From an uncultured Parabacteroides sp. (GTDB lineage: Bacteria; Bacteroidota; Bacteroidia; Bacteroidales; Tannerellaceae), in assembly GCA_949295065.1 (NCBI GenBank), contig CASFJQ010000001.1:226169-290168 (forward strand): a stretch of 64,000 nt of DNA. Direction: 5' to 3'. The position numbers and the translations under genes are program-made. Each line of letters opens with the position of its first letter. The stretch's first letter is position 1. Positions 7,265 through 62,172 of the stretch are shown piece after piece. The notes below the pieces were generated by a model. That model saw nothing but the letters and a program-made list of their open reading frames with translations, ran no database searches and was not told the origin of the DNA.

Positions 7265-7352
7265 CACAACTGTGATTTGATTTCGCCACATTTGTGACTT
7301 AATTAAATCACAAGTGTGACCTAATTTCGCCACAGCTGTGGCGAAGATAATA
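7265..7352. repeat. 22-bp periodic palindrome array A (CACAnnTGTG)
   Basis: Four 10-bp cores of form CACAnnTGTG start at 7265, 7287, 7309 and 7331, exactly 22 bp apart. Cores are CACAACTGTG, CACATTTGTG, CACAAGTGTG and CACAGCTGTG, separated by 12-bp linkers. The last core lies in a perfect 20-bp palindrome TTCGCCACAGCTGTGGCGAA (7326-7345). The array is the middle of the 552-bp gap between the barrel gene and radC; no gene is visible there. Confidence 0.85.
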
Positions 7353-7361
7353 TGTTTAAGT

Positions 7362-7480
7362 TTAGCAAATAGCTTAACTTAAAAGTAAACAAGGCTTCAG
7401 GGACAAGTTTACAAGGTTAAAAACATCTGTAACTTTAAAATTAGGCTATAAAACTTTATAAACTTAGTTTGTGCGAATAG
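7362..7480. repeat. partial copy of the TTGACAAG-type repeat upstream of radC
   Basis: The stretch contains AGCTTAACTTAAAAGTAAAC, AAGGCTTCAGGGACAAG and CATCTGTAACTTTA, in the same order as the ~150-bp repeat but without its right terminal arm. It appears to be a degraded copy. The remaining ~40 bp before radC are A/T-rich. Confidence 0.55.
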
Positions 7481-7523
7481 AATTAAAATATTATTTTTAC
7501 GCAAATTAAAATAAAACCGGACT

Positions 7524-8213
7524 ATGAAACAGTTACCAATCAGTAAATGGGCCGAAGATGACAGACCACGTGAGAAAATGCTGCAACAAGGAGCTTCAGC
7601 GTTGACAAATGCCGAGTTGCTGGGAATTCTGTTGGGCTCAGGAAATTCAGAAGAAACGGCTGTAGGCTTGGCGCAGCGTATCCTTTCATCTTACAACAAT
7701 AATCTTAATGAACTTGGAAAGAAAACGCCTCAGGATTTGGAAAAAGAATTCAAGGGCGTTGGTCCTGCAAAAGCTGTAACCGTCCTTGCGGCAATTGAAT
7801 TGGGCAGACGCCGTGCGAAGGAGGAAATCCCAATCAGAACACGTATTACATGCAGCCGTGATATTTACGAAACACTTCATCCGCAACTTGCTGATTTGGC
7901 GCACGAGGAATTTTGGGTTATTTATCTGAACCGGGCAAATAAAATTATCGAGCAGAAAAAGATAGGTCAGGGCGGAACGGGTGAGGTGGTTGCTGATATA
8001 ATGCTCATATTGCGTACGGCTCTTATGGTTCTTTCCCCGGCAATTGTGGTGGTTCATAATCATCCTTCGGGAAATTGCAAACCCAGCAGACAGGACGATT
8101 TGCTGACAGGAAGAATAAAGGAGGCTTGCCGGAGTTTGAATATTCAGATGCTTGACCATGTTATTGTTTCGGACGGGCAATATTACAGTTATGCAGATGA
8201 AGGGCGTTTGTGA
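7524..8213 (+). CDS. radC: RadC-family JAB/MPN protein
   Basis: 229 residues, normal for RadC. The N-terminal helix-hairpin-helix-like region (about 25-95, with LLGILLGSG and FKGVGPAKAVTVLAAIELG) is followed by a JAB1/MPN domain. That domain carries the metal-binding motif VVVHNHPSGNCKPSRQDD, with His178, His180, Ser188 and Asp191 in H-x-H-x7-S-x2-D spacing. RadC is historically called a DNA-repair protein, but its biochemical role is unsettled; the motif indicates a metal-dependent hydrolase fold. It starts a same-strand run with the DUF59 gene (43 nt later) and lpxH. Start ATG at 7524. Confidence 0.95.
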   Translation: MKQLPISKWAEDDRPREKMLQQGASALTNAELLGILLGSGNSEETAVGLAQRILSSYNNNLNELGKKTPQDLEKEFKGVGPAKAVTVLAAIELGRRRAKEEIPIRTRITCSRDIYETLHPQLADLAHEEFWVIYLNRANKIIEQKKIGQGGTGEVVADIMLILRTALMVLSPAIVVVHNHPSGNCKPSRQDDLLTGRIKEACRSLNIQMLDHVIVSDGQYYSYADEGRL

Positions 8214-8256
8214 AAAGAGTTTTTTGATTATTTTTGCCAAAAAAATCAGGTAAACA

Positions 8257-8574
8257 ATGAATAACGAATTTTTGCAGACAGAAGAAGCTATCGTTGCGAT
8301 GCTGAAAACAGTATATGACCCGGAAATACCGGTTAATATTTACGACCTTGGACTTGTGTATAAGGTTGACGTTGATGAAGAAAAGAATGTTACAATAGAT
8401 ATGACTCTTACAGCGCCTAACTGTCCGGCTGCTGATTTTATTGTTGAGGATGTAAGAATGAAGGTGGAGTCGATTTCGGATGTTAAGAGTGTTGACGTAA
8501 ACCTTGTGTTCGAGCCGGAATGGGACAAAGACATGATGACTGAGGAGGCGAAACTGGAACTTGGTTTCCTGTAA
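8257..8574 (+). CDS. DUF59/MIP18-family iron-sulfur assembly protein (SufT-like)
   Basis: 105 residues forming a single DUF59 domain. Characteristic are the early stretch DPEIPVNIYDLGLVYKV and the central TLTAPNCPAADFI, whose cysteine is the conserved residue of the family. The end (FEPEWDKDMMTEEAKLELGF) matches small bacterial members called metal-sulfur cluster biosynthetic enzymes or SufT-like. They assist Fe-S cluster maturation or carriage. No suf genes are in the window. It lies between radC and lpxH with 43- and 19-nt gaps, so co-transcription is likely. Family call strong; exact partner proteins unknown. Confidence 0.93.
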   Translation: MNNEFLQTEEAIVAMLKTVYDPEIPVNIYDLGLVYKVDVDEEKNVTIDMTLTAPNCPAADFIVEDVRMKVESISDVKSVDVNLVFEPEWDKDMMTEEAKLELGFL

Positions 8575-8593
8575 AAACAAATCATAACGACAG

Positions 8594-9361
8594 ATGAGCC
8601 GTAACAAAATATATTTTGCCTCTGATGCCCATCTTGGTGCACGATTCCATAAAGATGCGTTGGCTGTTGAGCGCCGTCTTGTACGCTGGCTCGACAGCAT
8701 CAAGGATGAGGCGGCTGAGATTTGGTTTCTCGGAGATATGTTCGACTATTGGTATGAGTATAAGTATGTTGTGCCAAAAGGATTTACCCGTTTCCTTGGG
8801 AAAATAGCCGAACTGTCCGACAATGGTGTGAAGATTCATTTCTTCATCGGGAACCATGATATTTGGATGTTCGATTATCTTCCGCAGGAAGTTGGAGCTA
8901 TAATACACCGTAATCCTCTTACTGTGGATTTGCTTGGAAAGCGTTTCTTCCTTGGACATGGAGATGAAGTTGACTATCGCAGCAAGGCTTTTCGCGTAAT
9001 CAGGCAGATTTTCCGTAATCGTTTTTGCCAGATTCTGTATAGTGCGATTCATCCGCGCTGGACTTTCGGTTTTGCCCTCGGATGGTCGCTGCATAGCCGT
9101 AAGAAAGGTTTGGAGAAGAATGATAAAAACGAAGCTCCGGAATACATGGGCGAAGAGAAAGAATATCTTGTTCAATTTGCCAAATCATATCTTAAAGAGC
9201 ATAATGATATTAATTTTTTTATTTTCGGTCATCGTCATATTATGCTCGACCTTATGCTGACGCGTGACAGCCGCCTTCTTGTCGCCGGCGATTGGATGAG
9301 ACATTTCTCATATATTGTTTGGGATGGTGAAGTTCTTTGGCTCGACCAGTTCGAGGAGTAA
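8594..9361 (+). CDS. lpxH: UDP-2,3-diacylglucosamine diphosphatase (LpxH-type)
   Basis: 255 residues of the calcineurin-like phosphoesterase fold. It releases UMP from UDP-2,3-diacylglucosamine to give lipid X in lipid A synthesis, at the inner face of the inner membrane. All metal motifs are visible: SDAHLGA (Asp11, His13), GDMFDYW (Asp48), GNHD (Asn87, His88), LGHGDEVD (His122) and FGHRHI near residue 212. The extra C-terminal region with LARDS-like RDSRLLVAGDWM fits LpxH proteins of Bacteroidota, which diverge from the E. coli enzyme. It is the last gene of the radC-DUF59-lpxH run. Start ATG at 8594 follows the preceding stop by 19 nt. Confidence 0.9.
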   Translation: MSRNKIYFASDAHLGARFHKDALAVERRLVRWLDSIKDEAAEIWFLGDMFDYWYEYKYVVPKGFTRFLGKIAELSDNGVKIHFFIGNHDIWMFDYLPQEVGAIIHRNPLTVDLLGKRFFLGHGDEVDYRSKAFRVIRQIFRNRFCQILYSAIHPRWTFGFALGWSLHSRKKGLEKNDKNEAPEYMGEEKEYLVQFAKSYLKEHNDINFFIFGHRHIMLDLMLTRDSRLLVAGDWMRHFSYIVWDGEVLWLDQFEE

Positions 9362-9666
9362 TTTTTATGTGTGTGCGGTGTCTTATATAAAGAAACAAAG
9401 GCGGAATCATTTGTTTTCTACTGTATATTTTTTCGGAAAATCGGAGATAAAAATGGTTGTGTGAAAAAAACGGCGCGTAATATGCTGAATATTAATTGTA
9501 ATGATTACCTTTGTGGCATGTATAAATATTAAATGCAGAGTGGAAATTCTGATTTTTTATTCACTGAAGATATATCATTGAAAGTTCTTATATGAAATTA
9601 TAGCTGTGTGGAATTAATTCCTGTCATGAAAAATGAAGGAATTGTCCATGACTTTATATTGTATGT
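9362..9666. other. non-coding gap between lpxH and pepD, left part
   Basis: About 300 bp without a plausible gene. The only signal is a plus-strand TACCTTTG (9506-9513), which looks like a -7 box but has no coding sequence downstream; it could drive a small RNA or be chance. Nothing else recognised. Confidence 0.4.
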
Positions 9667-9794
9667 GGGTGTTGCAAAACATAAATAATGAAACACAGAG
9701 GCACAAAGTCACAGAGGTAATATATTGAGAATAAACAAAATAAAAATCTCCGTGCTCTCCGTGTCTCTGTGTTTAAATTAGTTTTGCAACATCC
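9667..9794. repeat. 128-bp inverted-repeat element of the CACAGAGG type
   Basis: The outer arms GGGTGTTGCAAAAC (9667-9680) and GTTTTGCAACATCC (9781-9794) match at 13 of 14 positions. The inner arms AAACACAGAGGCAC (9691-9704) and GTGTCTCTGTGTTT (9761-9774) match at 13 of 14. The CACAGAGG/CTCTGTG words recur near 30765, 35120, 36541 and 37780. No coding potential. Resembles a miniature inverted-repeat element. Confidence 0.7.
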
Positions 9795-9858
9795 TCCAAT
9801 TGATGGCTATCATTTTCCCTGTAGAGGGATCAAGATAGATTTCGCATAAAAATAAAAA

Positions 9859-9888
9859 AAAGCAGGCTGTCGTGAGACACCCTGCTTT
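9859..9888 (-). terminator. rho-independent terminator of pepD
   Basis: AGCAGGCTGTC and GACACCCTGCT form an 11-bp stem with one mismatch. On the minus strand it is followed by an eight-base T run. It sits about 20 nt beyond the pepD stop. Confidence 0.88.
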
Positions 9889-9910
9889 TGCTATATATTT
9901 ATGTTTGCTG

Positions 9911-11365
9911 TTAAATCTTTTCCAACACTCGTTTAATATATTCCCAAGTTCTTCCAACTGAAGAAATGCTTACACATTCATCCGGCGAATGAGGATGCCT
10001 CAAATCCGGGCCGATTGAAATCATGTCCATTGAAGGATATGCGCCCTGGATTATACCGCATTCCAATCCGGCATGCATAACTGTTACGTTTGGCTCTTTG
10101 CCATACAGTTCCTTGTATGTTTCTTTCATTATATTCAGAATTGGAGAATTAATATCCGGCTGCCAACCGTTATATCCATTTGCAATTTCAACTTTTCCTC
10201 CGGCAAGGGCGAATATGCTTTCAAGGCTTGAGCATACAGCATCTTTTCTGGTTTCGGAAGAGCTGCGGACAAGAATCATTATCTCAATCAGTTCGTCTGA
10301 AGTGCGGACAACAGACAAATTGCTTGAAGATTCAACAGTTCCGGGGAAATCATGCAGCATACTGATAGGACCATTCTGGCAACCTTCAATTGCATTAATC
10401 AAGTCGTCCTGGATTTCTTCAGGAATAAGAGTTGACGGAAGATCAACCATTTCTGCTGTGAAAGAAAGATTTGGCTCGATGCCTCGGTATTCTTCTCTGT
10501 ACATATCCTGATAGTCGGCAACAAGTTCCCACATTGCTTCAACATTATCACCCGGAATGGTTACAACAGCCACGGCTTCACGAGGAATAGCGTTTCTCAT
10601 GTTTCCTCCTTCGATTGACGACAGGCGTGCGCCATAATCGCAAACAGCTTCCTTGAGGAAACGGAACATCAGTTTGTTGGCGTTTGCTCGTCCAAGGTGA
10701 ATATCAACACCTGAATGTCCGCCTTTCAGACCGGTAAGAGATACTTTTACAGCGACATCTCCTTCCGGAATATATTTGTCTTCTTTGAATTGGAAAGTAA
10801 TATTCATATCAGCACCACCGGCACAACCCACAAAAAGCTGGCCTTCTTCTTCCGAATCACAGTTGAGGAGAATATCGCCTTTAAGGAATCCGGGTTTAAG
10901 GCCGAAAGCTCCGTCCATTCCGACTTCCTCGTCAACAGTAAACAAGGCTTCGATTGGACCATGTTTCAAGCTGTTGTCTGATAAAACAGCGAGAGCGAGA
11001 GATGCACCGATTCCGTTGTCAGCACCAAGTGTCGTACCTTGGGCTTTAACCCAATCTCCGTCGGCATAAGCATTGATAGGATCAGTAAGGAAATCATGCT
11101 CGACAGAAGAATTCTTCTGAGGAACCATGTCGAGGTGAGACTGCAGAGTCACTGTTTTTCTGTTTTCCATACCCGGAGTGGCGGGTTTGCGGATTAGGAT
11201 ATTTCCAACTTCGTCCTGCAGTGTTTCGAGTCCAAGCTTCTTGCCACATTCGGAAACATAACGTGTAACTGCTTCCATATGTCCTGTCGGACGGGGAATT
11301 TGTGTTAGGTCATAGAAATAACTCCATACCTGATTTGGAGATAGATTCTTGATTTCTGCTGACAT
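9911..11365 (-). CDS. pepD: aminoacyl-histidine dipeptidase (Xaa-His dipeptidase)
   Basis: Zinc metallopeptidase of family M20C that cleaves dipeptides such as beta-Ala-His and other Xaa-His or unspecific dipeptides in the cytoplasm. The length of 484 residues is typical of PepD. Visible metal and catalytic motifs are LQSHLDMVPQ (about 75-84), TTLGADNGIG (about 110-119) and DEEVGMDGAFGL (about 144-155). GLKGGHSGVDIH marks the start of the lid domain, and a terminal His motif is in VMHAGLECG. There is no signal peptide. The gene is followed by a strong terminator and preceded 53 nt upstream by the flippase-like gene on the same strand, so the two may be co-transcribed. Start ATG at 11365. Confidence 0.95.
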   Translation of the reverse strand: MSAEIKNLSPNQVWSYFYDLTQIPRPTGHMEAVTRYVSECGKKLGLETLQDEVGNILIRKPATPGMENRKTVTLQSHLDMVPQKNSSVEHDFLTDPINAYADGDWVKAQGTTLGADNGIGASLALAVLSDNSLKHGPIEALFTVDEEVGMDGAFGLKPGFLKGDILLNCDSEEEGQLFVGCAGGADMNITFQFKEDKYIPEGDVAVKVSLTGLKGGHSGVDIHLGRANANKLMFRFLKEAVCDYGARLSSIEGGNMRNAIPREAVAVVTIPGDNVEAMWELVADYQDMYREEYRGIEPNLSFTAEMVDLPSTLIPEEIQDDLINAIEGCQNGPISMLHDFPGTVESSSNLSVVRTSDELIEIMILVRSSSETRKDAVCSSLESIFALAGGKVEIANGYNGWQPDINSPILNIMKETYKELYGKEPNVTVMHAGLECGIIQGAYPSMDMISIGPDLRHPHSPDECVSISSVGRTWEYIKRVLEKI

Positions 11366-11418
11366 AAAAAAGTGTTTTAATTAGGAAGTGTGTGGCACTT
11401 CCTGGTTGATAATTATGT

Positions 11419-12426
11419 TTACTCAAGTTCAGAGTCTTGTTCTTCCTTGTTTATTATAGGCAATGCCACAACGCCAACCAGACCGCAAAGCCCGGTCCAT
11501 AAAGTCTGGACGGTGTGAACCACCAGAGCAAATGCGGCAGCATCGTTTTCGTTTACACCAAAACAAACCAAAGTGGCTATTACCATAAAATGCCACGGCC
11601 CGATTCCTCCCTGGACCGGCACGGCAACTGCAATGCTTCCCATTGCAAAGGCAATCAGTCCTACTGATATTCCCAAATTCTCTGTAAAGTCAAAAGCAAA
11701 GAATGTTATATAGAAATATATGAAATATCCAATCCATATTAACAGAGTCTCAGCAATGAAAAGACTCTTATTCCTCATAACCCAGATGCTTTTGATGCCA
11801 GTCCAGATATTATTTAGCATATCCTTTGCTTTCTTGACGAGTGTAAAGTTACTCATATATCTGAAAATAAACCAACCTGCAACAATAAAAAATACAACTA
11901 AGGCATAAATCCAGATGGAAGTGAACATTGAATAGAAGCCGTCGAGCAATGTAGGGTTTTTGGCAAAGAAACTGCCGAAGAAATTGAAGTTGAATATCAT
12001 TATGCTTAAGGTGATGAGCCCGACCATTATCGTGTCGCTTACACGGTCTATCAGTAAAGTGCCTAACAGCTTGGTAAAAGGAATTTTGTCATATTTCATA
12101 ACCATACCGCATCTCCACACTTCTCCAACTCGTGGCAAAACCAAATTTACTGCATAATTCCCCAATACGGCAAGAATGGCATTGCGCAGTTTGAAACGCT
12201 GTCCCAAGGATTCGATAAGCAAACCCCAGCGAAATCCTCTGATAATATTTGCGCCAAGACCGAAAATGAGAGAGAGCAGGATTATCTTATAGTTTACTCC
12301 ATTTCTGATGACATCCTTAATCTCTGTAATATCCATATTCCTGTATAGAAACCATAGAAGAAGGCATCCTAAAGCCAGTGGCAGGAATATTTTTAATATC
12401 GTTCGAAAAATATGAGCAAAATCCAT
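11419..12426 (-). CDS. flippase-like/lysylphosphatidylglycerol synthase TM-region family protein
   Basis: 335-residue integral membrane protein with about eight hydrophobic segments. It matches the UPF0104/LPG_synthase_TM family: the N-terminal pair of helices, then the conserved GLGANIIRGFRWGLLIES, and VLPRVGEVWRCGMVMKY (about 98-114). Later comes VPVQGGIGPWHFMV. The MprF-type aminoacyl-transferase domain is absent, so this is a stand-alone transmembrane part, a group often annotated as flippase-like. The lipid substrate is unknown. It lies divergent from rsmA and upstream of pepD on the same strand. A TATCTTTG box is found about 53 nt upstream. Confidence 0.85.
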   Translation of the reverse strand: MDFAHIFRTILKIFLPLALGCLLLWFLYRNMDITEIKDVIRNGVNYKIILLSLIFGLGANIIRGFRWGLLIESLGQRFKLRNAILAVLGNYAVNLVLPRVGEVWRCGMVMKYDKIPFTKLLGTLLIDRVSDTIMVGLITLSIMIFNFNFFGSFFAKNPTLLDGFYSMFTSIWIYALVVFFIVAGWFIFRYMSNFTLVKKAKDMLNNIWTGIKSIWVMRNKSLFIAETLLIWIGYFIYFYITFFAFDFTENLGISVGLIAFAMGSIAVAVPVQGGIGPWHFMVIATLVCFGVNENDAAAFALVVHTVQTLWTGLCGLVGVVALPIINKEEQDSELE

Positions 12427-12462
12427 CGTACGGGGAATATTTAAATTTTGAATAATTTATTG

Positions 12463-12486
12463 TACTTTTGTATGTCTGCAAAGATA
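12463..12486. promoter_or_regulatory. divergent -7 boxes for rsmA (+) and the flippase-like gene (-)
   Basis: TACTTTTG (12463-12470, plus) faces rsmA and TATCTTTG (12479-12486, minus) faces the membrane-protein gene. The boxes are only 8 nt apart, so polymerases starting in each direction would compete. Confidence 0.55.
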
Positions 12487-12528
12487 AAGAATTTATTGAA
12501 ATAGGAACTATATATTAACCTTTGGTGG

Positions 12529-13320: not shown

Positions 13321-13472
13321 GTTGAACTGTAATTTTGTGTCTGGTGTTTTATTAGAGATATAAAGTTTCATGTCGGAATGCATTTCCCTTATTGTGTGGA
13401 TGTTTTTGCATGAACCCCAAATGATTTAAGAATCTTGGACCTTTGTCAGGTCTCACAAAAACGTTGGTTATT

Positions 13473-14819: not shown

Positions 14820-14840
14820 GATGTACTCAAACTTAATTTT

Positions 14841-14968
14841 CAGGAGTTAAAGAAGTTATGGCTCTGCTTCGCATAGCCGGGAAGTAATAAGCAGATATAT
14901 TTCAGAAACAATAGTATTGGCTGTTAACTCCTATAACTCCTTTTTTAACACCAGTAACTCCATAGTTG
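14841..14968. repeat. hairpin repeat with ~10-bp periodicity (copy 1)
   Basis: The left arm CAGGAGTTAAAGAAGTTATG leads into GCTCTGCTTCGCATAGCCGG. The right arm GTTAACTCCTATAACTCC is its near complement. Each arm is itself built of AGTTA/TAACT words about 10 bp apart. Close relatives lie at 23321-23467 and 28301-28438. It follows mgtE and could also act as a 3' stem-loop. Confidence 0.65.
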
Positions 14969-18682: not shown

Positions 18683-18740
18683 CCAAACACGAATCCTTTG
18701 TGTTTAGTGTAAGCTGTGAGGATCCGATATTCTAGTTAAT

Positions 18741-18812
18741 TAGTTGACAAGTTAACAAGTTGACAAGAAACATTTATGAAAACCTTGTCAACTTGTTCCC
18801 TCGTTACCTTGT
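18741..18812. repeat. TTGACAAG-type inverted repeat next to ackA
   Basis: AGTTGACAAGTTAACAAG-type words with an 8-bp repeat unit face CTTGTCAACTTGTTCCC about 25 bp later, giving a stem. Similar blocks lie between ackA and pta and at many other gene borders. Confidence 0.65.
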
Positions 18813-20047: not shown

Positions 20048-20126
20048 AGTTGACAAGTTGACGAGTTAACAAGGGAACAAGATATTAATCTTTTATTTCT
20101 AAAACCTTGTCAACTTGTTCCCCTGT
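20048..20126. repeat. TTGACAAG-type inverted repeat between pta and ackA
   Basis: TAGTTGACAAGTTGACGAGT faces AACCTTGTCAACTTGTTCCC across about 35 bp. It fills nearly the entire pta-ackA spacer and would form a stem in the shared transcript. Confidence 0.65.
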
Positions 20127-21345: not shown

Positions 21346-21433
21346 TTTCCGAAAAAAGCTCGGCATCTTTCCCGGAAAACACTGCAGTGTTTCCGAAAAA
21401 AGATGCCGAGCTTTTCCTGGAAATAACCTGTTC
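21346..21433. repeat. 22-bp periodic array F (TTTCC...GGAAA)
   Basis: Four consecutive 22-bp units begin TTTCCG, TTTCCC, TTTCCG and TTTTCC at 21346, 21368, 21390 and 21412. The first and third units share TTTCCGAAAAAAG. The array folds back on itself: AGCTCGGCATCTTT (21357-21370) is the exact complement of AAAGATGCCGAGCT (21399-21412), and AACACTGCAGTGTT lies at the centre. It sits in the 364-bp gap between cdaA (-) and pta (-). The rest of the gap holds no gene. Confidence 0.85.
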
Positions 21434-27897: not shown

Positions 27898-28232
27898 ATG
27901 CATTTCTCCGCATAAATACTTTATCGTAGAATCATGAATCGGGGTTGATTGGAATAATTGTTAATTATTGTTGTTAAGTCACATCATTCCCCTGTTTATT
28001 AAAGAAATAGCATAATTGTGAAACATCGCTCCGGAAACTTCCTGTATATAGAGTGAGATAAAAATGTAACTGAGAGAATATTAAAAATTGAGACAAAAAA
28101 TATATACGGAAGTATTTCCAAATATATACGGAAGTATTTCCTAATATATATAGAAGTAATTTGGAATATATATAGATGTACGGGCAAATATATATAGATG
28201 TATTTCATCACAGGGTCGAACCTGTAATTCGG
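27898..28232. repeat. ~330-bp dispersed repeat, copy 1 (inverted copy at ~47125-47435)
   Basis: The order of conserved words is CATTTCTCCGCATAAAT, CTTTATCGTAGAATC, GTTAAGTCACA, TGTTTATTAAAGA, ATAATTGTGAAACAT, GGAAACTTCCTGTATATAGA, AAAAATTGAGACAAAAA, the 22-bp array, and TCGAACCT. The same order appears on the opposite strand near 47.1-47.4 kb. No reading frame. The 596-bp gap between the GH43 gene and the porin contains this repeat and the hairpin at 28301, and nothing else recognised. Confidence 0.8.
28099..28208. repeat. 22-bp periodic array D (AATATATA...)
   Basis: Five units of exactly 22 bp start with AATATATA at 28099, 28121, 28143, 28165 and 28187. Units 1 and 2 differ only at the last base. 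Units 3-5 begin AATATATATAGA. It lies inside the ~330-bp repeat; the opposite copy (array E) has one unit fewer. Confidence 0.88.
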
Positions 28233-30039: not shown

Positions 30040-30681
30040 ATGACTGTTGACGATATAAAACCGGTTATAAAGGTTCCGGAGCCGACGTTGAGGAGACTGC
30101 CATGGTATTTGGCGTTTTTGAAGCTGTTGAAGGCTCGTGGTGAAGAATTTGTTTCGTCCACACAAATAGCGAAAGAGATAAATGTTGATCCTAGCCAGGT
30201 TGCGAAGGATTTGTCGTATGTCAATGTTTCAGGTAAAACTCGTGTTGGATATGAGATAGATGCGTTGATTGAGGAACTTGATGATTTTTTAGGTTTTGCT
30301 TCTTCTCATAAAGCTGTAATATTCGGAGTCGGAAGTTTGGGAGCGGCATTGCTTCAGGATTCTGGTTTGAAACAGTACGGCCTTGAAGTGGTTGCCGGAT
30401 TTGATGTCCGCCGTGAATTGTCTGGAAAATCAATAAATGGAATACCGGTTTATCATATCGATGATTTCCCTGCCATCCGCAAGAAACTTGGGGCAACTAT
30501 AGGCATAGTTACTGTTCCTGTGGACAAGGCTCAGGAAGTTACTGATTATATGATAAAGGGTGGAATACGTGCGTTATGGAATTTTACACCTTTCCGTATC
30601 CGTGTGCCGGAGAATATTGTGGTGCAGAACACTTCGTTGTATGCTCATTTGGCGGTGATGTTTAATAGGATTCAGGAGTGA
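30040..30681 (+). CDS. rex: redox-sensing transcriptional repressor Rex
   Basis: Dimeric repressor that leaves DNA when the NADH/NAD+ ratio rises, controlling fermentation and respiration genes. 213 residues. The N-terminal winged helix (about 1-80) contains VSSTQIAKEINVDPSQVAKDLSYV and GKTRVGYEIDALIEEL. The Rossmann domain contains AVIFGVGSLGAALLQ (about 92-106) and AGFDVRRE. The C-terminal swapping helix contains RIRVPENIVVQNTSLYAHLAVMFNRI. Pta/AckA in the same window are plausible indirect targets, but no Rex operator was identified. Monocistronic, followed by a repeat block. Confidence 0.96.
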   Translation: MTVDDIKPVIKVPEPTLRRLPWYLAFLKLLKARGEEFVSSTQIAKEINVDPSQVAKDLSYVNVSGKTRVGYEIDALIEELDDFLGFASSHKAVIFGVGSLGAALLQDSGLKQYGLEVVAGFDVRRELSGKSINGIPVYHIDDFPAIRKKLGATIGIVTVPVDKAQEVTDYMIKGGIRALWNFTPFRIRVPENIVVQNTSLYAHLAVMFNRIQE

Positions 30682-30849
30682 CAGGTAACAGGTGACAAGT
30701 TGACAAGGGAACAAGTTGACAAGGGGTTAAGTGCTGAGTTGGGAAATTGAATTTTTAAACTCCATGTCTCTGTGAGCTCTGTGCTGAATTTAGATTTTTC
30801 AGATCCTTGTATCTGAAGCCTCGTCCCCTTGTCTCTAAAATACACATTT
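30682..30849. repeat. TTGACAAG/CTCTGTG repeat block between rex and the FAH gene
   Basis: Contains AACAGGTGACAAGTTGACAA, AACAAGTTGACAAGG, CCATGTCTCTGTGAGCTCTG and CTTGTATCTGAAGCCTCG, i.e. pieces of two repeat families joined together. No gene in it. Confidence 0.6.
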
Positions 30850-34913: not shown

Positions 34914-35313
34914 TTAACAAGGAAAAGGGAATAAGTTGACGAGATGACGAGTTGACAAGGTGATAAGGCAATAAGGTGAAATAGTATAGAACTCCTTGAC
35001 TCCTTAACTTCTTGACTCCTCCACTTCTCACAAAATAATTCTCTCTCCCAATACAATAAAATGAAACAAAATAGGTTTAGTATTTTATAAGTTGACGAGT
35101 TAACGAGTTGACAAGGGTATGAAACACGGAGACTTGGAGGCACAGAGGGGAAAGGTTTAGAGTTGAGAGTTTAGAGATTAGAGTTTATAGTTGTGAGTTT
35201 ATATTTAAAGAATATAGAAACTAATAACTATCGGCCTCTAACTCCAATAACTCCATATAACTCCTTCTTGACTCCTTGACTTCTCAACTCCTTGACTCCT
35301 TAAAACCAAGTAT
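34914..35313. repeat. composite repeat region between porU and porV
   Basis: The 400-bp gap contains no gene. It is built of TTGACGAG/TTGACAAG words (34935-34965, 35090-35115) and CCTTGACTCC/TTAACTTC words (34990-35030, 35230-35305). A CACGGAGACTTGGAGGCACA block lies near 35121, followed by short GAGTTTAGAG reiterations to 35200. The CACGGAG...AAAGAATATAGAAA part resembles the blocks at 36540-36620 and 37750-37810. Confidence 0.65.
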
Positions 35314-36511: not shown

Positions 36512-36655
36512 GTTGACGAGGGGACGAGTTGACAAGGGGTTAAACACGGAGGCGCAGAGACACAGAGAGAAAAGGTTGAGAGTTTAGGGATTAGAGTTTA
36601 AAGAATATAGAAATCTTCTTGACTACTTAACTACTTGACTCCTTCACTCCTTCCC
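36512..36655. repeat. composite repeat, left copy of an inverted pair flanking ispF-SUI1
   Basis: The segment from 36520 to 36559 is an exact 40-bp inverted match of 37786-37825. It begins GGGGACGAGTTGACAAGG and ends GGAGGCGCAGAG. Similarity continues through AAAGAATATAGAAA and CTTGACTACTTAACTAC to about 36655. No coding capacity. Confidence 0.85.
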
Positions 36656-37172: not shown

Positions 37173-37262
37173 AAAAATATATACGGTCCCATATGATCAT
37201 GGGTTCGGTCCCGCGTTGCGTTGGGTTCGGTCCTACGATTGTGCGGGACCGTATATATTTTT
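37173..37262. repeat. 22-bp periodic array C (CGGTCC...) in a hairpin frame
   Basis: Three 22-bp units start CGGTCC at 37184, 37206 and 37228. Units 1 and 2 end GGGTT; unit 3 ends GGGAC. The array is enclosed by a perfect 18-bp inverted repeat: AAAAATATATACGGTCCC (37173-37190) and GGGACCGTATATATTTTT (37245-37262). With a T run at the end it could also terminate ispF transcription. Confidence 0.85.
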
Positions 37263-44890: not shown

Positions 44891-45003
44891 CAACAAGTTA
44901 GGAATTGATTTTGGTCATACAAATGTATATACATTATATTACAGATGTGTAACACTTGTATTACGGTATTATTACGTGAGTGACTCAACTTCTTCCCTGA
45001 AAC

Positions 45004-47124: not shown

Positions 47125-47435
47125 TATTGTTGGAATTTAGGTTCGGATCCGCGGTGAAATATATCTATATATATATGCGCATACATCTATATATATTCTG
47201 AATTACTTCTATATATATTTGGAAGTGCTTCCGTATATGTTTTTGTCTCAATTTTTGATATTTTCTCAGATAGATTTATTATCCGGCTCTATATACAGGA
47301 AGTTTCCGGAAAGAAGTTTCACAATTCCGCTATCTCTTTAATAAACAGCGAAATACTGTGACTTAATAACAGTATTTAACAAACGGGACAATCAGACTAA
47401 ATTTTTGATTTTACGATAAAGAATTTATGTGGAGA
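47125..47435. repeat. ~310-bp dispersed repeat, copy 2 (opposite orientation to 27898-28232)
   Basis: Reads, in reverse, the same word order as the copy at 28 kb: AATTGTGAAACTT, GGAAACTTCCTGTATATAGA, AAAAATTGAGACAAAAA, the 22-bp array and TCCGAACCT. Outside lie GTTATTAAGTCACAG and CATAAATTCTTTATCGT. This, the ~150-bp repeat at 47483 and the array at 47714 fill the 814-bp gap between GH97 and the YgjP-like gene; no gene is seen. Confidence 0.8.
47163..47250. repeat. 22-bp periodic array E (inverted relative of array D)
   Basis: Units start at 47163, 47185, 47207 and 47229 (ATCTATATATAT, ATCTATATATAT, TTCTATATATAT, TTCCGTATATGT), each exactly 22 bp. It has one unit fewer than array D, and several units differ, so the two copies have changed in unit number and sequence while keeping the spacing. 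Confidence 0.88.
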
Positions 47436-47482: not shown

Positions 47483-47638
47483 TCAAGTTTTGCAAGCTTA
47501 ACTTCCAGATAACAAGTTGACAAGAAGACAAGTTAACAAGATTTTTGGATAATAATTCGTGAAATTACAGGTGCTCTGACCTTGTCAACTCGTATCTGAA
47601 GCCTTTTAAACTTTTAAGTTGAGTAACTTGCGAAACTT
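47483..47638. repeat. dispersed ~150-bp repeat with inverted ends (copy 2)
   Basis: In reverse orientation it aligns closely over its whole length with 7055-7201. Shared words include AAGTTACTCAACTTAAAAG, GGCTTCAGATACGAG, CTGTAATTTCACGAATTA and CAAAAATCTTGTTAACTTG. Confidence 0.8.
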
Positions 47639-47713
47639 AAATAATATTTAATGTTCACCAGATTCCTTTGGTAATCAGATATATAAAAGAATTGTGAAAC
47701 ATGCGCTCGGAAA

Positions 47714-47778
47714 CTTCCCATGTTTTGAAAAAAAGCTGCCTATGTTTCCGGAAAAAGGTCGGCAGCTTTTCTTGGGAA
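47714..47778. repeat. 22-bp periodic array G with terminator-like stem
   Basis: Units start at 47714, 47736 and 47758, and CTTCCCATGT recurs at 47779 (spacing 22, 22, 21). AAAAGCTGCC (47731-47740) pairs with GGCAGCTTTT (47761-47770), which may terminate the YgjP-like gene (-). The upstream AATTGTGAAACATGCGCTCG and GGAAACTTCCCATG resemble the flank of arrays D and E. Confidence 0.7.
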
Positions 47779-47791
47779 CTTCCCATGTATT

Positions 47792-55146: not shown

Positions 55147-55155
55147 TTAATCTAA

Positions 55156-56646: not shown

Positions 56647-56685
56647 TCCTGCATTTATTATTAAACATACAACTTAGATAAAAGA

Positions 56686-56712
56686 AAAGGTCATCCGGCG
56701 GGATGACCTTTT
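56686..56712. terminator. bidirectional terminator between susD (+) and the aminotransferase (-)
   Basis: AAGGTCATCC and GGATGACCTT form a 10-bp stem. A seven-base T run follows on the plus strand and a TTTTCTTTT run on the minus strand. Confidence 0.9.
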
Positions 56713-56760
56713 TTTGTTGACTTGTCTCTGAAGCCTTGTCAACTTTCTCTTATTTCAATT

Positions 56761-57954
56761 TTATTTCAACAAAGCCAATGCTTCCTTGATTCTGCGCATA
56801 GCTTCGATGATATTCTCATCAGAAGTAGCATAGCTCATTCTGATGCATTCAGGAGCACCGAAAGCACCACCGCCAACACAAGCAACATGGCCAACTTCCA
56901 ACAGATACATTGCCAAGTCAGCAGCAGATTCAATCTTACGATCGCCATTTGATTTGCCGAAATATGAACTACATTTAGGGAACAAATAGAATGCGCCCTG
57001 AGGAACATTAACCTCGAAGCCTGGGATTTCCTTGGCAAGCTTCACGATAAGGTCGCGACGGCGTTCGAATGCTTTACGCATTTCTTCAACAGGTTCCTGA
57101 GTTCCGGTGTAAGCGGCTTCAGCAGCTTTCTGAGAAACAGAGCAAGGACCAGAAGTATATTGACCCTGAAGTTTGTTCACACCTTTAACAATCCATTCCG
57201 GACCGGCAATGAAACCAATTCTCCATCCAGTCATTGCATAAGCTTTTGAAACACCGTTTACGATAACAACACGGTCGCGGATTTCCTCAAACTGGGCGAT
57301 ACTTTCATGTTTGCCGATATAATTTATGTGTTCATAAATCTCGTCGGCGATTACATAAACCTGCGGATATTTTGCAAGCACTTTTGCCAATCCTTCCAGT
57401 TCTTCTTTGCTGTAAACAGAACCTGTCGGGTTTGAAGGTGAGCAAAGAATCAGAAGTTTTGTTTTCGGAGTAATTGCAGCTTCCAGCTGTGCAGGAGTGA
57501 TTTTGAAGTCCTGCTCAATACCGGCAGTTACAGTAACAGGCGTTCCTTCCGCCATTTTTACCATTTCAGGATAACTTACCCAATATGGAGCCGGGATAAT
57601 TACTTCGTCTCCGCAATCAACCAATGCCATGATTGTGTTGCAAACTGACTGTTTTGCTCCGTTAGCGCATGAAATCTGGGCTGCAGTAAATTCCAGTCCG
57701 TTTTCATTTTTCAGTTTGTTTACGATGGCATTGCGCAATTCAGGATATCCTGCTACTGGAGAATATCTTGAATAGTTGTTATCTACTGCCTTTTTAGCAG
57801 CTTCTTTGATATGTTCCGGTGTGTTGAAGTCCGGTTCACCAACACTCATGTTGATAATATCAATACCTTGTGCTTTCAATTCAGCACTTTTCTGCGACAT
57901 TGCCAATGTTTCAGACGGTGACAATCTGTTCAATCTTTCAGATAATTTCGCCAT
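56761..57954 (-). CDS. aspC: pyridoxal-phosphate aminotransferase, aspartate aminotransferase type (class I, subgroup Ib)
   Basis: 397 residues from ATG 57954 (MAKLSERLNRLSPSETLAMS). A longer frame to 57996 starts at TTG and adds an unlikely head. Class I fold motifs are INMSVGEPDFNTPEHIKEA, YSPVAGYPELRNAI, ISCANGAKQSVCNTIMAL, CSPSNPTGSVYSKEELEGLA, VIADEIYEHINY and VSKAYAMTGWRIGFIAGP, with the PLP lysine at about 237. The N-terminal form resembles subgroup Ib aspartate aminotransferases, which in some organisms also act on prephenate. Product: oxaloacetate/aspartate exchange, linking to asd earlier in the window. Convergent with susD; a repeat separates it from ribBA. Confidence 0.95.
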   Translation of the reverse strand: MAKLSERLNRLSPSETLAMSQKSAELKAQGIDIINMSVGEPDFNTPEHIKEAAKKAVDNNYSRYSPVAGYPELRNAIVNKLKNENGLEFTAAQISCANGAKQSVCNTIMALVDCGDEVIIPAPYWVSYPEMVKMAEGTPVTVTAGIEQDFKITPAQLEAAITPKTKLLILCSPSNPTGSVYSKEELEGLAKVLAKYPQVYVIADEIYEHINYIGKHESIAQFEEIRDRVVIVNGVSKAYAMTGWRIGFIAGPEWIVKGVNKLQGQYTSGPCSVSQKAAEAAYTGTQEPVEEMRKAFERRRDLIVKLAKEIPGFEVNVPQGAFYLFPKCSSYFGKSNGDRKIESAADLAMYLLEVGHVACVGGGAFGAPECIRMSYATSDENIIEAMRRIKEALALLK

Positions 57955-58011
57955 TGTTCCAAGAATTTTTAAGGTTATTATTTTAAAGTATCGCAAGCGG
58001 AGATTTATATT

Positions 58012-58107
58012 AGTTGACGAGGTTTCAGATACAAGTTAACAAGGTTTTTGGCTGCCTTGTTAACTTGTATCCTCGTCATCTTTGCAAATCGAGCTTGCGA
58101 GACTTAC
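58012..58107. repeat. shortened copy of the TTGACAAG-type repeat (copy 4)
   Basis: Contains TTGACGAGGTTTCAGATACA, then GTTAACAAGGTTTTTGGCTG, CCTTGTTAACTTGTATCCTCG and GAGCTTGCGAGACTT. The two halves complement each other (AACAAGG...CCTTGTT), making a hairpin just past the end of ribBA (-). Confidence 0.7.
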
Positions 58108-58109
58108 TT

Positions 58110-59324
58110 TTATTTCAAATTATGAAGAGTATGTCCCATTCTGTCCTTCTTGGTTCTCAGATAAAATTCGTTGAACTTGTTAGGAGTAACTTCGATAGGA
58201 ATATTTTCTGCAACAGACAATCCGTATGCTTCCAGACCAACGCGCTTCACTGGATTGTTTGTCAACAGACGCATTTTTGTAATACCAAGATGTTGCAGGA
58301 TTTGAGCGCCGACTCCATAGTCGCGTTCGTCAGCCTGGTGGCCAAGGCAAATATTTGCCTCGATTGTGTCCATGCCATTTTCCTGGAGTTTGTAAGCCTT
58401 CATCTTTTCCATAAGTCCGATGCCACGTCCTTCCTGGTTCAGATAAATCACAGCTCCACGTCCTTCCTTCTCGATGAGTCGCAATGCTTTGTGAAGCTGC
58501 TCACCGCAGTCGCAGCGCATTGAACCGAAAATATCTCCGGTTGCACATGATGAGTGAACTCTCACCAATACAGGTTCGTCACCTTTCACGTCGCCTTTGA
58601 TTATTGCTATATGTTCAAGTCCGTTACTTTTCTGACGGAAAGGAATCAGACGGAAATGACCGTATTCAGTCGGCATATCTACTTCCTCGCCCTGCTCAAC
58701 GATAGATTCCTGTTTCAGACGGTATGCTATGAGGTCGGCTATTGAAATAAGTTTCAAATCATATTTGTCAGCCATCTCTCTCAATTCAGGCAATCTTGCC
58801 ATAGTTCCGTCATCGTTCATTATTTCCATAAGAGCAGCTGCAGGATATAATCCGGCAAGTCGTGCCATATCTACGCTCGCTTCTGTATGTCCGGCTCTGC
58901 GAAGCACTCCTTTGTCTTGGGCATAAAGCGGATTGATATGTCCCGGACGGCCGAATGTCTCAGGCTTAGAATTCGGATCTGCCAAAGCACGGATTGTTGC
59001 GGCACGGTCAGTTGCGGAAACACCGGTCGAACAGCCTTCCAGCTTGTCGATTGTAACCGTAAACGGTGTACCAAGCACAGATGTGTTGTTGCTGACCTGA
59101 TGTGGCAAATCCAACTCTTTACAGCGGGACATTGTAATCGGAGCGCACAGCACTCCTCTGGCATGTTTCAGCATGAAATTGATTTTCTCCGGAGTAACTT
59201 TCTCAGCAGCGATAATAAGGTCGCCTTCATTTTCGCGATCTTCGTCGTCGACCACTATGACGAATTTGCCCTCGCGGAAATCTTCAATTGCTTCTTCGAT
59301 CGAATCTAATTTAATTTTGCTCAT
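58110..59324 (-). CDS. ribBA: bifunctional 3,4-dihydroxy-2-butanone-4-phosphate synthase / GTP cyclohydrolase II
   Basis: 404 residues performing the two entry reactions of riboflavin synthesis. The N-terminal RibB half (about 1-205) has [65 protein letters not shown] and [18 protein letters not shown]. The C-terminal RibA half (about 206-404) has the zinc-cysteine cluster [67 protein letters not shown] and [14 protein letters not shown]. Both domains keep their signature residues, so both activities are expected. No other rib genes are adjacent. Start ATG at 59324; lptF/G lies 76 nt further upstream on the same strand. Confidence 0.97.
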
Positions 59325-59400
59325 ATTATTTCTGTTTTTTGAGTTTCTTGTTTACAACTTGTCTGCCAGCTCGAAACATTAAAGTCCAACTTGCAAAACT

Positions 59401-61344
59401 TCAGTTGATAATTCCCAGCATCTCATCACTCGTCTTCTTAATCATTTTGATATCGCTAAGCAATAGCTTTCTCTGATAAACTGCAAGAAGATATACAGGA
59501 ATTCCGACAGGCAAGATAATACCTATTATTATACCTGTTTTACCTTTGAGACGCAGATTCATACTGTTGTATCCTCCGATGACAGGATAATCCATCAGCT
59601 TGTTCAAGACAAGATTCTGGTCGGAGTTCGAAAGCTCTTCAACCAGATATTCCATTTCGTTGGCAAGTTTTTCTGCCTCGATGTCCTTTCCTCCGCTCTT
59701 CCAGAAATGAATATAGTTTATCCATCTCTTATGGTTGTTAATATATTTCTGGCAGTCTGACGAAAGCTGCTGGATTCTTGGCTTCAGACTTGCATAGTCC
59801 GGCGTATAAATGACAACTTCCTTCTTTTCGATTTTTCGTCCCTGACGTTTGCCGACAATATTTTTCAGCGCATTGATATAAGTATCGGCATTCAGGATAA
59901 CTGAATCTTTTGCCGCCTTATATGTAAGGAAAATTCCCAGCGGAGTCAGAACTGCCGAGCTCAGCCACATTCCTTGCCAAACTTCCCACACTCCGTCTCT
60001 TGCCATTTTTATACCGATATTGTCAACGATATAATAGAAAATGAACAGGATTACGGACAGCACGACCGGCATTCCCAATCCTCCTTTTCGGATAATGGCG
60101 CCAAGCGGAGCGCCGATGAAGAAGAAAATCATGCAGGCAAATGACAGTGTGAATTTCTTGTGCCATTCCGACAAATGCTTGCGCACCTTGTATGCCTCGT
60201 CGCCAACGGTCGCAGCTTTGAAGAAATTGTCTGTCCTTATGTTTTCAGCCCTGTTTCTTGCCCTTTTCAACATATTCACTTTTTCGCTCGGTCTGCTTTC
60301 GTTATACAGGCTGTCGAAATTCAATACAATATTTCCTGAACTAACTTTATAATCCTCGAATATGTTTTCCTTTTCCTTTTCCTTATCTCCGTCATCAACC
60401 TTTTTCTTGGCAGTCTCCGGGGCCTTGTTGTATGACTGTTTGTACGACAGTTTGTAAATATGCGCAGCCTGCTCATTCTTTATGCTGTCCAGCTTTACAG
60501 TCATCGAGTCTATCGAAGTCTGCAAATCATGCAGATTCTTTCCCATATACTGGTTTTGCATAAGCGATTCGTCCGTGCGGTTGAAATTGGCGTCAAATTC
60601 AATCAGGATATCTTTCGTCTTGAATGTCTCGCGTCTGTACGGAACAGCCTTTTGCACCGAGCTGGTCTTGCTCTGGCTCTTCAGATTCTCGAAAGATTCA
60701 CCGTTGAAAAGCGAAAGAACAAGAAACATCTTGTCTGCCGAAGTCTTCAGACGGCCTGAATCGGCAACAATCACCCTCGCATTGTTGAATCCCTGCGAAT
60801 AGTCGTATATCATCATATCCTTGAGCAGGCCGGTTTTCGGCACCTTTTCTTTTACATACACATTGAACCCCGTAATCTCTTTATAGAAAGTACCTTCCGG
60901 AATTTCCAGCTCCGGCGATTTCTGTCGCATCGAAAACAGCAGAGTATATAGCTTGACCTGCACGACCGGCATCACATAGTTCTGGAAAAAGAAAGCACCC
61001 ACACTCACAAAAGCCAAAGTTATAATCAGCGGGCGCATGATGTGTATGAGCGATATGCCTGCCGATTTCATCGCAAGCAGCTCAAGCCTTTCACCCAAAT
61101 TCCCGAAAGTCATGAGTGATGCAAGTAGGATTGCAAGAGGCAAAGCCATCGGTACAAGAAACAATGCCGCATAGAAAAACATCTCGGCCAATACAAGGAT
61201 GCCAAAACCTTTTCCCACCATATCATCAATGTATCTCCACAGAAACTGCATCAATACGATGAACAGACATATACCGAATGTCATCATAAACAAAGGCAGG
61301 AATGTCTGCAGCATGAATGTATAAAGTCGTTTTATTCTCAACAT
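59401..61344 (-). CDS. LptF/LptG-family LPS export permease
   Basis: 647 residues, longer than the ~360 of E. coli LptF or LptG. The first ~110 residues hold transmembrane helices (MLRIKRLYTFMLQTFLPLFMMTFGICLFIVLMQFLWRYIDDMVGKGF, and the LLASLMTFGNLGERLELLAMKSAGIS loop). A large periplasmic jellyroll region follows, with QNYVMPVVQVKLYTLLFSMRQKSPELEIPEG. Three more helices lie around 420-510 (FACMIFFFIGAPLGAIIRKGGLGMPVVLSVILF). The extra C-terminal ~120 residues, with a coiled-coil-like WKSGGKDIEAEKLANEMEYLVEELSN and a final hydrophobic segment, are a Bacteroidota feature. The protein should extract LPS from the inner membrane with LptB. Same strand as ribBA. Confidence 0.93.
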   Translation of the reverse strand: MLRIKRLYTFMLQTFLPLFMMTFGICLFIVLMQFLWRYIDDMVGKGFGILVLAEMFFYAALFLVPMALPLAILLASLMTFGNLGERLELLAMKSAGISLIHIMRPLIITLAFVSVGAFFFQNYVMPVVQVKLYTLLFSMRQKSPELEIPEGTFYKEITGFNVYVKEKVPKTGLLKDMMIYDYSQGFNNARVIVADSGRLKTSADKMFLVLSLFNGESFENLKSQSKTSSVQKAVPYRRETFKTKDILIEFDANFNRTDESLMQNQYMGKNLHDLQTSIDSMTVKLDSIKNEQAAHIYKLSYKQSYNKAPETAKKKVDDGDKEKEKENIFEDYKVSSGNIVLNFDSLYNESRPSEKVNMLKRARNRAENIRTDNFFKAATVGDEAYKVRKHLSEWHKKFTLSFACMIFFFIGAPLGAIIRKGGLGMPVVLSVILFIFYYIVDNIGIKMARDGVWEVWQGMWLSSAVLTPLGIFLTYKAAKDSVILNADTYINALKNIVGKRQGRKIEKKEVVIYTPDYASLKPRIQQLSSDCQKYINNHKRWINYIHFWKSGGKDIEAEKLANEMEYLVEELSNSDQNLVLNKLMDYPVIGGYNSMNLRLKGKTGIIIGIILPVGIPVYLLAVYQRKLLLSDIKMIKKTSDEMLGIIN

Positions 61345-61496
61345 TTCAAATTATGAAGCTTTTGTTATGTTGTTACGGGCAGAATATAAAAGACTGGATA
61401 TGTTCGGATAAAACATACATGAATTTTAAAAAACCCGTATAAATTGCCGTTATAAGTTTAGCAGACAAAAATACGGTAAAAAACGCGAATAATCTT

Positions 61497-61883
61497 TCAA
61501 ATTCCCAATTTTCTTTTCAAAGTGGCAATTTGTGAATCCCATAAATCAATATAATATTCTTTTTCGGAAGGAGGAGCGAAATCTGTTATCTCAAGGGTTG
61601 TGATTCCGGTGAGTTCTGTTTGGTATATTGCGAATTCAAAGAAGGAGTTTGAGTCTTTGTCGTTGTCCCATTGGAATTTTATATTGCGTTCAGGGTTTAT
61701 TTCAATGACAGAAGCCATTTGTTCTTCTTTCTTCCATGAGAATGAATATCTGTTGTTGGGAGATATCGTAACCTTTTCGGCAAACCACGATGAAAGCCCG
61801 TTCCCGGTCGTTAAATGATTCCAGAGTCTGTGTCTCGAAACTCGGTTCATTGTATATTCAATATGAAACTCCTCTTTTTTCAT
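61497..61883 (-). CDS. START-like (SRPBCC) domain protein
   Basis: 128 residues, one helix-grip domain. Residues MKKEEFHIEYTMNRVSRHRLWNHLTTGNGLSSWFAEKV form the first strand and helix. NRYSFSWKKEEQMASVIEINPERNIKFQWD and FFEFAIYQTELTGITTLEITDFAPP are central strands. YIDLWDSQIATLKRKLGI is the long C-terminal helix. It resembles the START-like family regularly found next to the lptF/G gene in Bacteroidota, and related to AHSA1-type proteins. Ligand and function unknown. Transcribed in the same direction as lptF/G, from upstream DNA lacking a clear promoter. Confidence 0.85.
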   Translation of the reverse strand: MKKEEFHIEYTMNRVSRHRLWNHLTTGNGLSSWFAEKVTISPNNRYSFSWKKEEQMASVIEINPERNIKFQWDNDKDSNSFFEFAIYQTELTGITTLEITDFAPPSEKEYYIDLWDSQIATLKRKLGI

Positions 61884-62084
61884 AAGAACTATAATTCAAA
61901 AGTTAACAGAACGTATTTGTTTTCAAAATATTACTGCTTGCAATATATGAAAATGTTTTTGAATTGCAAATTTTTCATTTTATAAAATAATCTTTATATG
62001 AAAATTTGTCTGCCATGCGATTGCTTTGATTTCACATGAAAATGTCTGATTCTTTTCCCTTTCGGTATATCCTTTTTATCGGCT

Positions 62085-62172
62085 CACCTAGGTGGTTCGT
62101 TCAATCCACCTAGGTGAGCCAATCAATCCACCTAGGTGGTCCGATTGAACCACCTAGGTGAGTCAAAAAAAC
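62085..62172. repeat. 22-bp periodic palindrome array B (CACCTAGGTG)
   Basis: Four identical 10-bp palindromes CACCTAGGTG at 62085, 62107, 62129 and 62151, exactly 22 bp apart, with 12-bp linkers of differing sequence. GGCTCACCTAGGTGG (62081-62095) is the exact complement of CCACCTAGGTGAGCC (62106-62120). The architecture is the same as in array A, with a different core. The open reading frame of the next gene begins 15 bp after the last palindrome. The remainder of the ~290-bp gap (61884-62084) holds nothing recognised. Confidence 0.9.

Follow-up and report, generated by a model that had tools for sequence, protein, structure and literature searches.

The stretch of DNA analysed here (the window) comprises 64,000 nucleotides of an uncultured Parabacteroides sp. 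(assembly GCA_949295065.1, contig CASFJQ010000001.1, positions 226,169 to 290,168 of the forward strand) and carries seven repeat arrays (Table 1). Arrays of this kind are about 100 bp long and intergenic, and consist of tandem, mostly four, 22-bp palindromes with complementary ends. In the source genome (G000, 86.8% complete) and in same-genus relatives (among them G010, G015, G016 and G025), such arrays are dispersed in families, and arrays also lie upstream of genes encoding HU-like proteins with a C-terminal winged helix-turn-helix (wHTH), termed HU-wHTH below. We consider it probable that the arrays are docking sites of cognate HU-wHTH proteins, with one gene-linked copy and about 8 to 24 solo copies each.

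Tandem palindrome arrays and their families

The first-pass annotation of the window had described seven arrays with a 22-bp period, and all seven are present where it placed them. Scored with a 44-base match window over lags 16-28, each is best at lag 22, with a tie at lag 21 for the array at 21346. When best lags were compared with 300 dinucleotide shuffles per array, the lag-22 value was reached by one shuffle for 21346 and by none for 7265, 28099, 37184, 47163, 47714 and 62085. The same annotation had proposed a genome-wide lag scan, in which the lack of an excess at 22 over neighbouring lags would refute its reading. In the intergenic DNA of the window, scanned with a 30-base window, lag 22 gave 11 hits against 0.1 expected, with 2 at lag 21 and 0 at lag 23. 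In the intergenic DNA of 390 kb of the genome, it gave 19 hits against 0.4 in shuffles, with 3, 5, 6, 11 and 13 hits at lags 20, 21, 23, 24 and 44, so that the excess is present at both scales and the refuting outcome did not occur. Lag 44 is twice 22. The 52 and 35 hits at lags 8 and 16 in the same DNA we read as a separate intergenic repeat built of TTGACAAG units, to which lags 24 and 32 probably belong as well. The arrays at 21346 and 47714 are weaker and fall below the threshold of the genome array listing. Of the same-genus samples of 100 kb each, those of G010 and G012 gave 4 and 2 hits at lag 21 and 2 and 6 at lag 22, against at most 0.2 expected and with other letters; that of G018 gave a lone lag-22 hit, by itself no excess. 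A 61.7-kb sample from another family of the order had zero hits at lags 21-23.

Table 1. Arrays with a 22-bp pitch in the 64-kb window (window coordinates)
Feature	Position	Strand	Description
F2 solo array	7265..7352	.	4 x 22-bp units, box CACNNNNGTG + 12-bp linker
F3 array	21346..21432	.	TTTCC-GGAAA units, one long hairpin; between pta and cdaA
F4 array	28099..28208	.	5 x 22-bp units (AATATATACGGAAGTATTTCC), within a longer dispersed element common with 47163
F7 array	37177..37259	.	3 x 22-bp units, CGGTCC start at 37184; outer inverted repeat ATATATACGGTCC / GGACCGTATATAT
F4 array	47163..47250	.	4 x 22-bp units; kin of 28099
Array put in F3 by motif	47714..47791	.	Units 22/22/21; long hairpin AAAAGCTGCC..GGCAGCTTTT
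F1 solo array	62085..62172	.	4 x 22-bp units (CACCTAGGTG + 12-bp linker)

The pitch stays constant as the letters change, and palindromes recur at a fixed position of the unit, as had been noted earlier. The accompanying view that the arrays are unrelated and locus-specific does not hold, since most of them fall in dispersed families. The arrays at 28099 and 47163 belong to two copies of a single element (84% identity over 223 bp), and by motif those at 21346 and 47714 seem to form one family. F1, represented by 62085, occurs at 18 distinct places in the genome. Its unit number is four in 14 of the 17 copies printed, three in 2 and five in 1, and many copies agree in position-specific linkers and in end sequences such as AAAATATCGGCT ... 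AGCCGATATTTT. F2 (7265) has at least two further members in the DNA examined, which also holds further families with a 21-, 22- or 23-bp pitch. For F7 (37184), the array listing, which spans 611 kb of the genome, shows no second copy, and no dedicated genome-wide search was made. One of the 23-bp-pitch families (AATATATGAAAAAAATTTTTCAT) is present in four copies, at C1:26232, 71029 and 200289 and C2:80047 of G000. Many F3 and F4 arrays are flanked by a conserved motif, AATTGTGAAAC, found at window positions 28014 (+), 47326 (-) and 47690 (+) and at sites on C1 and C2; several copies have a partly complementary GTTCAC about 30 bp ahead of it. This motif may mark one end of the F3/F4 elements.

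A scan for three CACN4GTG boxes at a 22-bp pitch, run on one genome per species for 84,980 species, returned at least 118 stretches, and Bacteroidota account for 71 of the 80 with titles. Since CACN4GTG arrays were found in only 4 of 247 genomes drawn across the order (reversed control pattern 0), this letter family is patchy. Over the stretches compared, arrays of G010 and G025 agree letter for letter with arrays in Parabacteroides records (P. faecalis and isolate STD2_99, respectively), which makes Parabacteroides the most likely genus of the window. Unit number was counted in 109 loci among the matches listed, made up of 71 titled as Bacteroidota and 38 untitled after nine loci titled outside Bacteroidota were dropped from the 118. 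It is 4 in 80 loci, 3 in 19, 5 in 6, 6 in 3 and 11 in 1. In a set of 79 different four-box arrays, pairing in the first six end positions reaches 75.7% for the outer arms, against 25% by chance, and is about 44-63% for the inner dyads.

HU genes with a C-terminal winged helix downstream of arrays

A hypothesis-free scan of array neighbours, using 80 of 134 listed neighbour proteins, returned HU-HIG (with the overlapping model Bac_DNA_binding) as the commonest Pfam family beside CACN4GTG arrays, with 7 of the 80 neighbours against 3 for the next family, and HU-HIG genes were accordingly taken up as candidate partners. Because the remaining scanned neighbours differ between loci, the conserved unit consists of the array and the HU-wHTH gene. 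Thirteen stretches from viral contigs were included in the HU-neighbour scan and in a scan for two-box clusters.

The partner proteins belong to HU-HIG (PF18291) and combine the fold of HU and IHF, the textbook nucleoid proteins, with a C-terminal wHTH. The protein at locus L243 scores 127.3 bits against the HU-HIG model (cut-off 26.2). This model also matches 9 of 14 control genomes with ordinary HU, and within the genus it has 1-54 matches per genome when all subtypes and ordinary HU are counted; from this genus survey, the best-scoring hit of each genome was taken as its HU gene. Profile and structure comparisons, with hits to HU/IHF and to HTH/wHTH chains, place the HU/IHF body at about residues 28-120 and the winged helix at about 129-198; the HU fold itself spans residues 30-119 and the wHTH residues 134-198. 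The AlphaFold model of HU-wHTH, built with alignment A2, displays the same two parts with a pLDDT of 86.2 and a pTM of 0.52, and in structure it most resembles BVU_2165 of Bacteroides vulgatus (4fmr). To our knowledge, no link between HU-HIG and tandem palindrome arrays has been described.

In the source genome, two different HU-wHTH genes are preceded by arrays of window families. An F2 array lies about 204 bp upstream of G000:C5:51174-51542 and an F1 array about 250 bp upstream of G000:C8:103672-104004, both distances being measured from the start codon that comes first in the open frame used. Among HU genes of the genus, typed by eye from the C-terminus, 21 of 21 whose product ends in a winged helix have a lag-22 array in the 400 bp ahead of them, as against 0 of 9 HU-HIG genes that lack this domain (Fisher p 7e-8). 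In 17 of the 21, the array ends 19-90 bp ahead of the start codon. The downstream control (400 bp 3') gave 2 hits in 34, and the background upstream rate across the genome samples is 17 of 533 genes (3.2%) at lag 22 and 42 of 533 (7.9%) at lags 21-23. These upstream counts, like those of the later set described next, omit L246 and L271 (198 and 73 bp upstream), L249 and L283, for which no open reading frame (ORF) was recovered, and two ordinary HU genes, L247 and L248. A later set of 20 genes, assembled after the rule had been seen and typed by profile coverage, has a lag-22 array in 10 of 12 wHTH-type genes and in 1 of 8 without the domain; the two wHTH-type misses have two-unit sites by eye. 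At loci ascertained through their arrays, with two weak non-HU hits (L128 and L171) set aside, an array lies upstream of 9 of 9 HU-wHTH genes at a distance of 10-118 bp.

The surroundings of these genes vary. VapE-like genes (PF05272) adjoin the HU-wHTH genes at L243, L256 and L263, on the side opposite to the array. At L256 the gene and its array stand beside rpsL/rpsG, and L259 and L260 match this locus at 90-93% over about 2.1 kb. Other HU-wHTH loci examined adjoin GH3, porin or sigma-factor genes.

The letters of the arrays co-vary with the proteins. When the half-sites of 30 gene-linked arrays are placed in register on the CAC seed, they display a common core with variable flanks. Their similarity correlates with protein similarity, with Mantel r of 0.43-0.46 for the HU body, the wHTH and the recognition helix and of 0.30 for the wing (0 of 5000 permutations). 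For 22 non-redundant pairs in register, r is 0.35-0.42 for the HU body, the wHTH and the recognition helix (0-5 of 5000). The gene-linked array of G025, used as a query, matches 25, 9, 10 and 20 distinct places in G025, G015, G016 and G010, and these matches include copies beside the orthologous HU gene in G015 and G016.

Dispersed solo copies

Five of the eight solo arrays fetched from G015 have an orthologous filled site in G016, a close species. Between these orthologous arrays, with units read as inverted turned first, changes number 3 of 120 positions in CAC/GTG, 13 of 240 in the arms and 16 of 80 in the 4-nt core (CAC/GTG versus core, p 8e-5). The box finder demands CA[CT]N4[AG]TG at end units and so favours conserved boxes, with no pair lost thereby; the divergence of the intergenic flanks, 115 of 765, is an over-estimate in which some flank edges are non-homologous. 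From this comparison the solo copies look constrained. In two cases a whole 22-bp unit is exactly inverted between the orthologous arrays (L316/L325 and L319/L324), which fits hairpin-mediated flips. Flips of the core alone were seen in 3 cases against 1.10 expected from the core pool, a weak difference, and the whole-unit inversions are the only convincing ones.

In 16 of 20 solo arrays from three genomes, the closest gene boundary is a 3' end, ten of the 20 being five orthologous pairs and so not independent. In a wider array set, among the matches listed, gene ends lie at a median of 80 bp and gene starts at a median of 181 bp. Among the matches listed, arrays lie between convergent genes in 16 of 71 cases, compared with 23 of 127 background intergenic regions. 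This orientation count leaves out 18 arrays within predicted ORFs. Gene ends are those given by a mechanical ORF caller. Arrays also occur between divergent genes, and their contexts resemble background.

One array of the window offers a comparison of filled and empty sites. The spacing between pta and cdaA is 205 bp in the window, against at most 132 bases in the 28 relatives with both flanks matched, and fewer than 30 in 25 of these 28. As judged from these spacings, the array at 21346 (F3) sits in a lineage-specific insertion; it is the sole filled/empty case obtained. For solo arrays of the CAC family, a clean empty site between close species was sought, and no insertion junction was resolved: at L318 the site is filled in G025 and the G016 match ends ahead of the array, and at L322 about 5-6 kb of DNA separate the two flanks in G016 and G025. 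A two-ended autonomous transposon was also considered and rejected, no second exact two-box cluster being present in any CAC-array locus scanned.

Proposed docking sites, rival explanations and related elements

For F1 (62085) and F2 (7265), we propose a two-part system in which an HU-wHTH dimer would occupy each 22-bp palindrome, the winged helices reading the half-sites and the HU body bending the DNA. Because the pitch corresponds to two helical turns, four such dimers could stack on a single face of the helix. The array just upstream of the HU-wHTH gene would serve as its autoregulatory operator, and the roughly 8 to 24 further copies per genome as solo docking sites, spread via whole-element copying and kept by selection on the half-sites. 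As the solo copies lie mostly away from promoters, they would probably be chromosome-structuring or gene-boundary sites. Face-aligned protein binding had been one suggestion of the first-pass annotation; the HU-wHTH genes beside the arrays fit this suggestion, and binding itself is what we infer. If each paralog recognizes its own letters, a constant architecture with changing sequence would be explained. A more tentative extension, which we regard as rather less likely to be right than wrong, is that Bacteroidales possess private address systems, in which multiple paralogous HU-wHTH proteins, each with its own letter family of four-palindrome arrays across the chromosome, together bend and bridge the nucleoid at defined gene boundaries, new pairs arising and amplifying in each species. 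If true, such multiplied winged-helix HU proteins with private dispersed arrays would provide a new handle on bacterial chromosome organisation and would account for some of the puzzling repeats in the genomes of gut Bacteroidales. A class of repeats so far unexplained would thereby become a protein-DNA code open to testing, for which nature offers dozens of protein-site pairs.

Several observations weigh against docking by HU-wHTH proteins. Five of the seven window arrays (F3, F4 and F7) have no HU-wHTH partner found, and none of 20 loci with F4-like matches in the source genome, incomplete as it is, and its relatives holds an HU-wHTH gene. These three families may have other partners, may belong with genes that the assembly lacks, or may be a different class of hairpin element; the F4 arrays fold poorly (z -2.1 and -1.2). 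A third wHTH-type gene of the source genome, L246, has no array in the 198 bp of upstream DNA available, and ahead of L248, one of the two ordinary HU genes, there is a lag-21 array at a distance of 339 bp. In the later gene set, widening the search to lags 21-23 gives 10 of 12 wHTH-type genes against 3 of 8 without the domain, two of these three being, by our reading, AT-rich or low-complexity lag-21 hits, and a downstream hit is present in 4 of the 20 genes. The co-variation is weak when half-sites are compared out of register (r 0.15, 436 of 5000; non-redundant 0.09, 1278 of 5000), and the wing falls to r 0.18 in the non-redundant set (177 of 5000). In register, the correlation is as strong for the HU body as for the wHTH, so that linked inheritance alone could explain it. 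The solo arrays, being nearer to gene ends than to gene starts, are also unlike ordinary promoter operators.

The best-surviving alternative, which we nonetheless hold to be improbable, is that the arrays are selfish elements resembling REP (repetitive extragenic palindrome) sequences or miniature inverted-repeat transposable elements (MITEs), spread by a transposase or a copying process, HU-wHTH being a passenger or helper and not a site-specific binder with a role for the host. Whole-element copies with sharp, complementary ends, the apparent insertion between pta and cdaA and intergenic contexts that resemble background are all what such elements would produce. The conservation of half-sites at orthologous solo arrays argues against it, as does the position of arrays upstream of nearly all examined wHTH-type HU genes, which is not expected from a random inserter. 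As for the mover, RAYT, the REP-associated tyrosine transposase of REPtrons, was tried and rejected: its model Y1_Tnp (PF01797) has 0 matches in G000, 86.8% complete, and control matches in 5 of 14 genomes.

Somewhat less probable still is an ordinary regulon, in which HU-wHTH would act as a transcription factor on target genes that have the solo arrays for operators. The placement of the gene-linked arrays just ahead of the start codon is operator-like, but the solo arrays favour the 3' ends of genes and are found between convergent genes about as often as background.

We give distinctly less weight to ladders of RNA hairpins acting as terminators, mRNA stabilisers or small RNAs, a version of which (a structural RNA ladder) had been put forward earlier. 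Folded as DNA against shuffles, several arrays do far better than chance (z -9.3, -8.5, -5.7, -4.1 and -3.3, the -8.5 being that of 21346). F3 and F7 look terminator-like, F3 resembling a bidirectional terminator hairpin. There is little sign of a structural RNA, however. Over A-C, the excess of G-T mismatches in the 79 four-box arrays is small (518 versus 438 expected), arrays occur between divergent genes, the F4 fold is near chance (28099 at -2.1, 47163 at -1.2), and Rfam has 0 matches within the window at gathering thresholds.

Two further explanations are very improbable. Arrays acting as iterons at the replication origins of small mobile elements, for which HU-wHTH would be the initiator, would agree with a 22-bp pitch upstream of a DNA-binding protein gene and with the VapE-like neighbours at three loci, but not with the GH3, porin and sigma-factor neighbours elsewhere, with rpsL/rpsG at L256 or with the many solo copies without genes. 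A purely mutational origin, in which hairpin template switching makes functionless palindromic tandem repeats, would account for the two exact unit inversions between G015 and G016 and leaves unexplained why the pitch is fixed, why four units are usual (80 of 109 among the matches listed) and why arrays lie upstream of HU-wHTH genes.

Several known repeat systems can be compared with these arrays. CRISPR (clustered regularly interspaced short palindromic repeat) arrays are identical repeats parted by unrelated spacers and accompanied by cas genes; the variable parts of the present arrays are partly palindromic, unlike spacers. Iterons and multi-operator arrays, ParB-parS and MatP-matS are phased repeats for a DNA-binding protein, with gene-linked and dispersed copies. 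Phasing and both kinds of copy are shared with the arrays described here, which differ in having many paralogous protein-site pairs per lineage, a partner with an HU body and the copying of whole four-unit elements. In the literature covered, with most subscription journals outside it, we recognised no account of HU-linked palindrome arrays.

The closest described elements are BrickBuilt and REP/RAYT, from each of which the arrays differ in a tested defining feature. REP sequences and bacterial interspersed mosaic elements (BIMEs) with RAYT transposases (REPtrons) are small multi-copy extragenic palindromes, some beside the cognate protein gene (PMC3733652). The present arrays are likewise multi-copy extragenic palindromes (F1 at 18 places) with some copies beside a partner gene. 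They differ from REP as presented there in that the partner is HU-wHTH, no RAYT was found in the genome, the 22-bp pitch is fixed and there are usually four units. REP units carry a GTAG or CGTC tag at their edge; counted anywhere in the array, GTAG/CTAC is present in 1 of 7 window arrays and CGTC/GACG in 1 of 7. BrickBuilt, a MITE of Porphyromonas gingivalis, is described as occupying 19 intergenic loci with 23-bp tandem units without spacers, and as limited to that species (PMC4596501). According to the same paper, 1 to 22.8 copies of one unit lie inside a leader/tail element with ends like those of insertion sequence IS5, and tandem repeats of 22, 23 and 41 nt had been reported earlier from strain W83 (PMC4596501). 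On that description, both BrickBuilt and our arrays occur in Bacteroidales as tandem repeats with a unit near 22-23 bp that are dispersed between genes and have terminal inverted repeats, the comparison covering the presence of such termini. The arrays here differ from BrickBuilt, as described there, by their mostly four palindromic units, their many letter families and the DNA-binding protein gene beside them. The BrickBuilt 23-nt consensus AGAYCATARTATCCTCTCRTRTG has 0 matches in the window at up to 3 mismatches, and the window arrays reach at best 15 of 23 positions in any rotation.

Two other repeats were noted in the window. A weak 22-bp repeat, additional to the seven arrays annotated earlier, lies between convergent genes at 44915-44966. 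The TTGACAAG-type intergenic repeat with its 8/16-bp pitch occurs at 6972-7523, 18734-18767, 20048-20073, 30679-30725, 34937-35301, 36618-36652 and 47510-47640, partly inside elements with ends like AAGTTTCGCAAGTTACTCAACTT.

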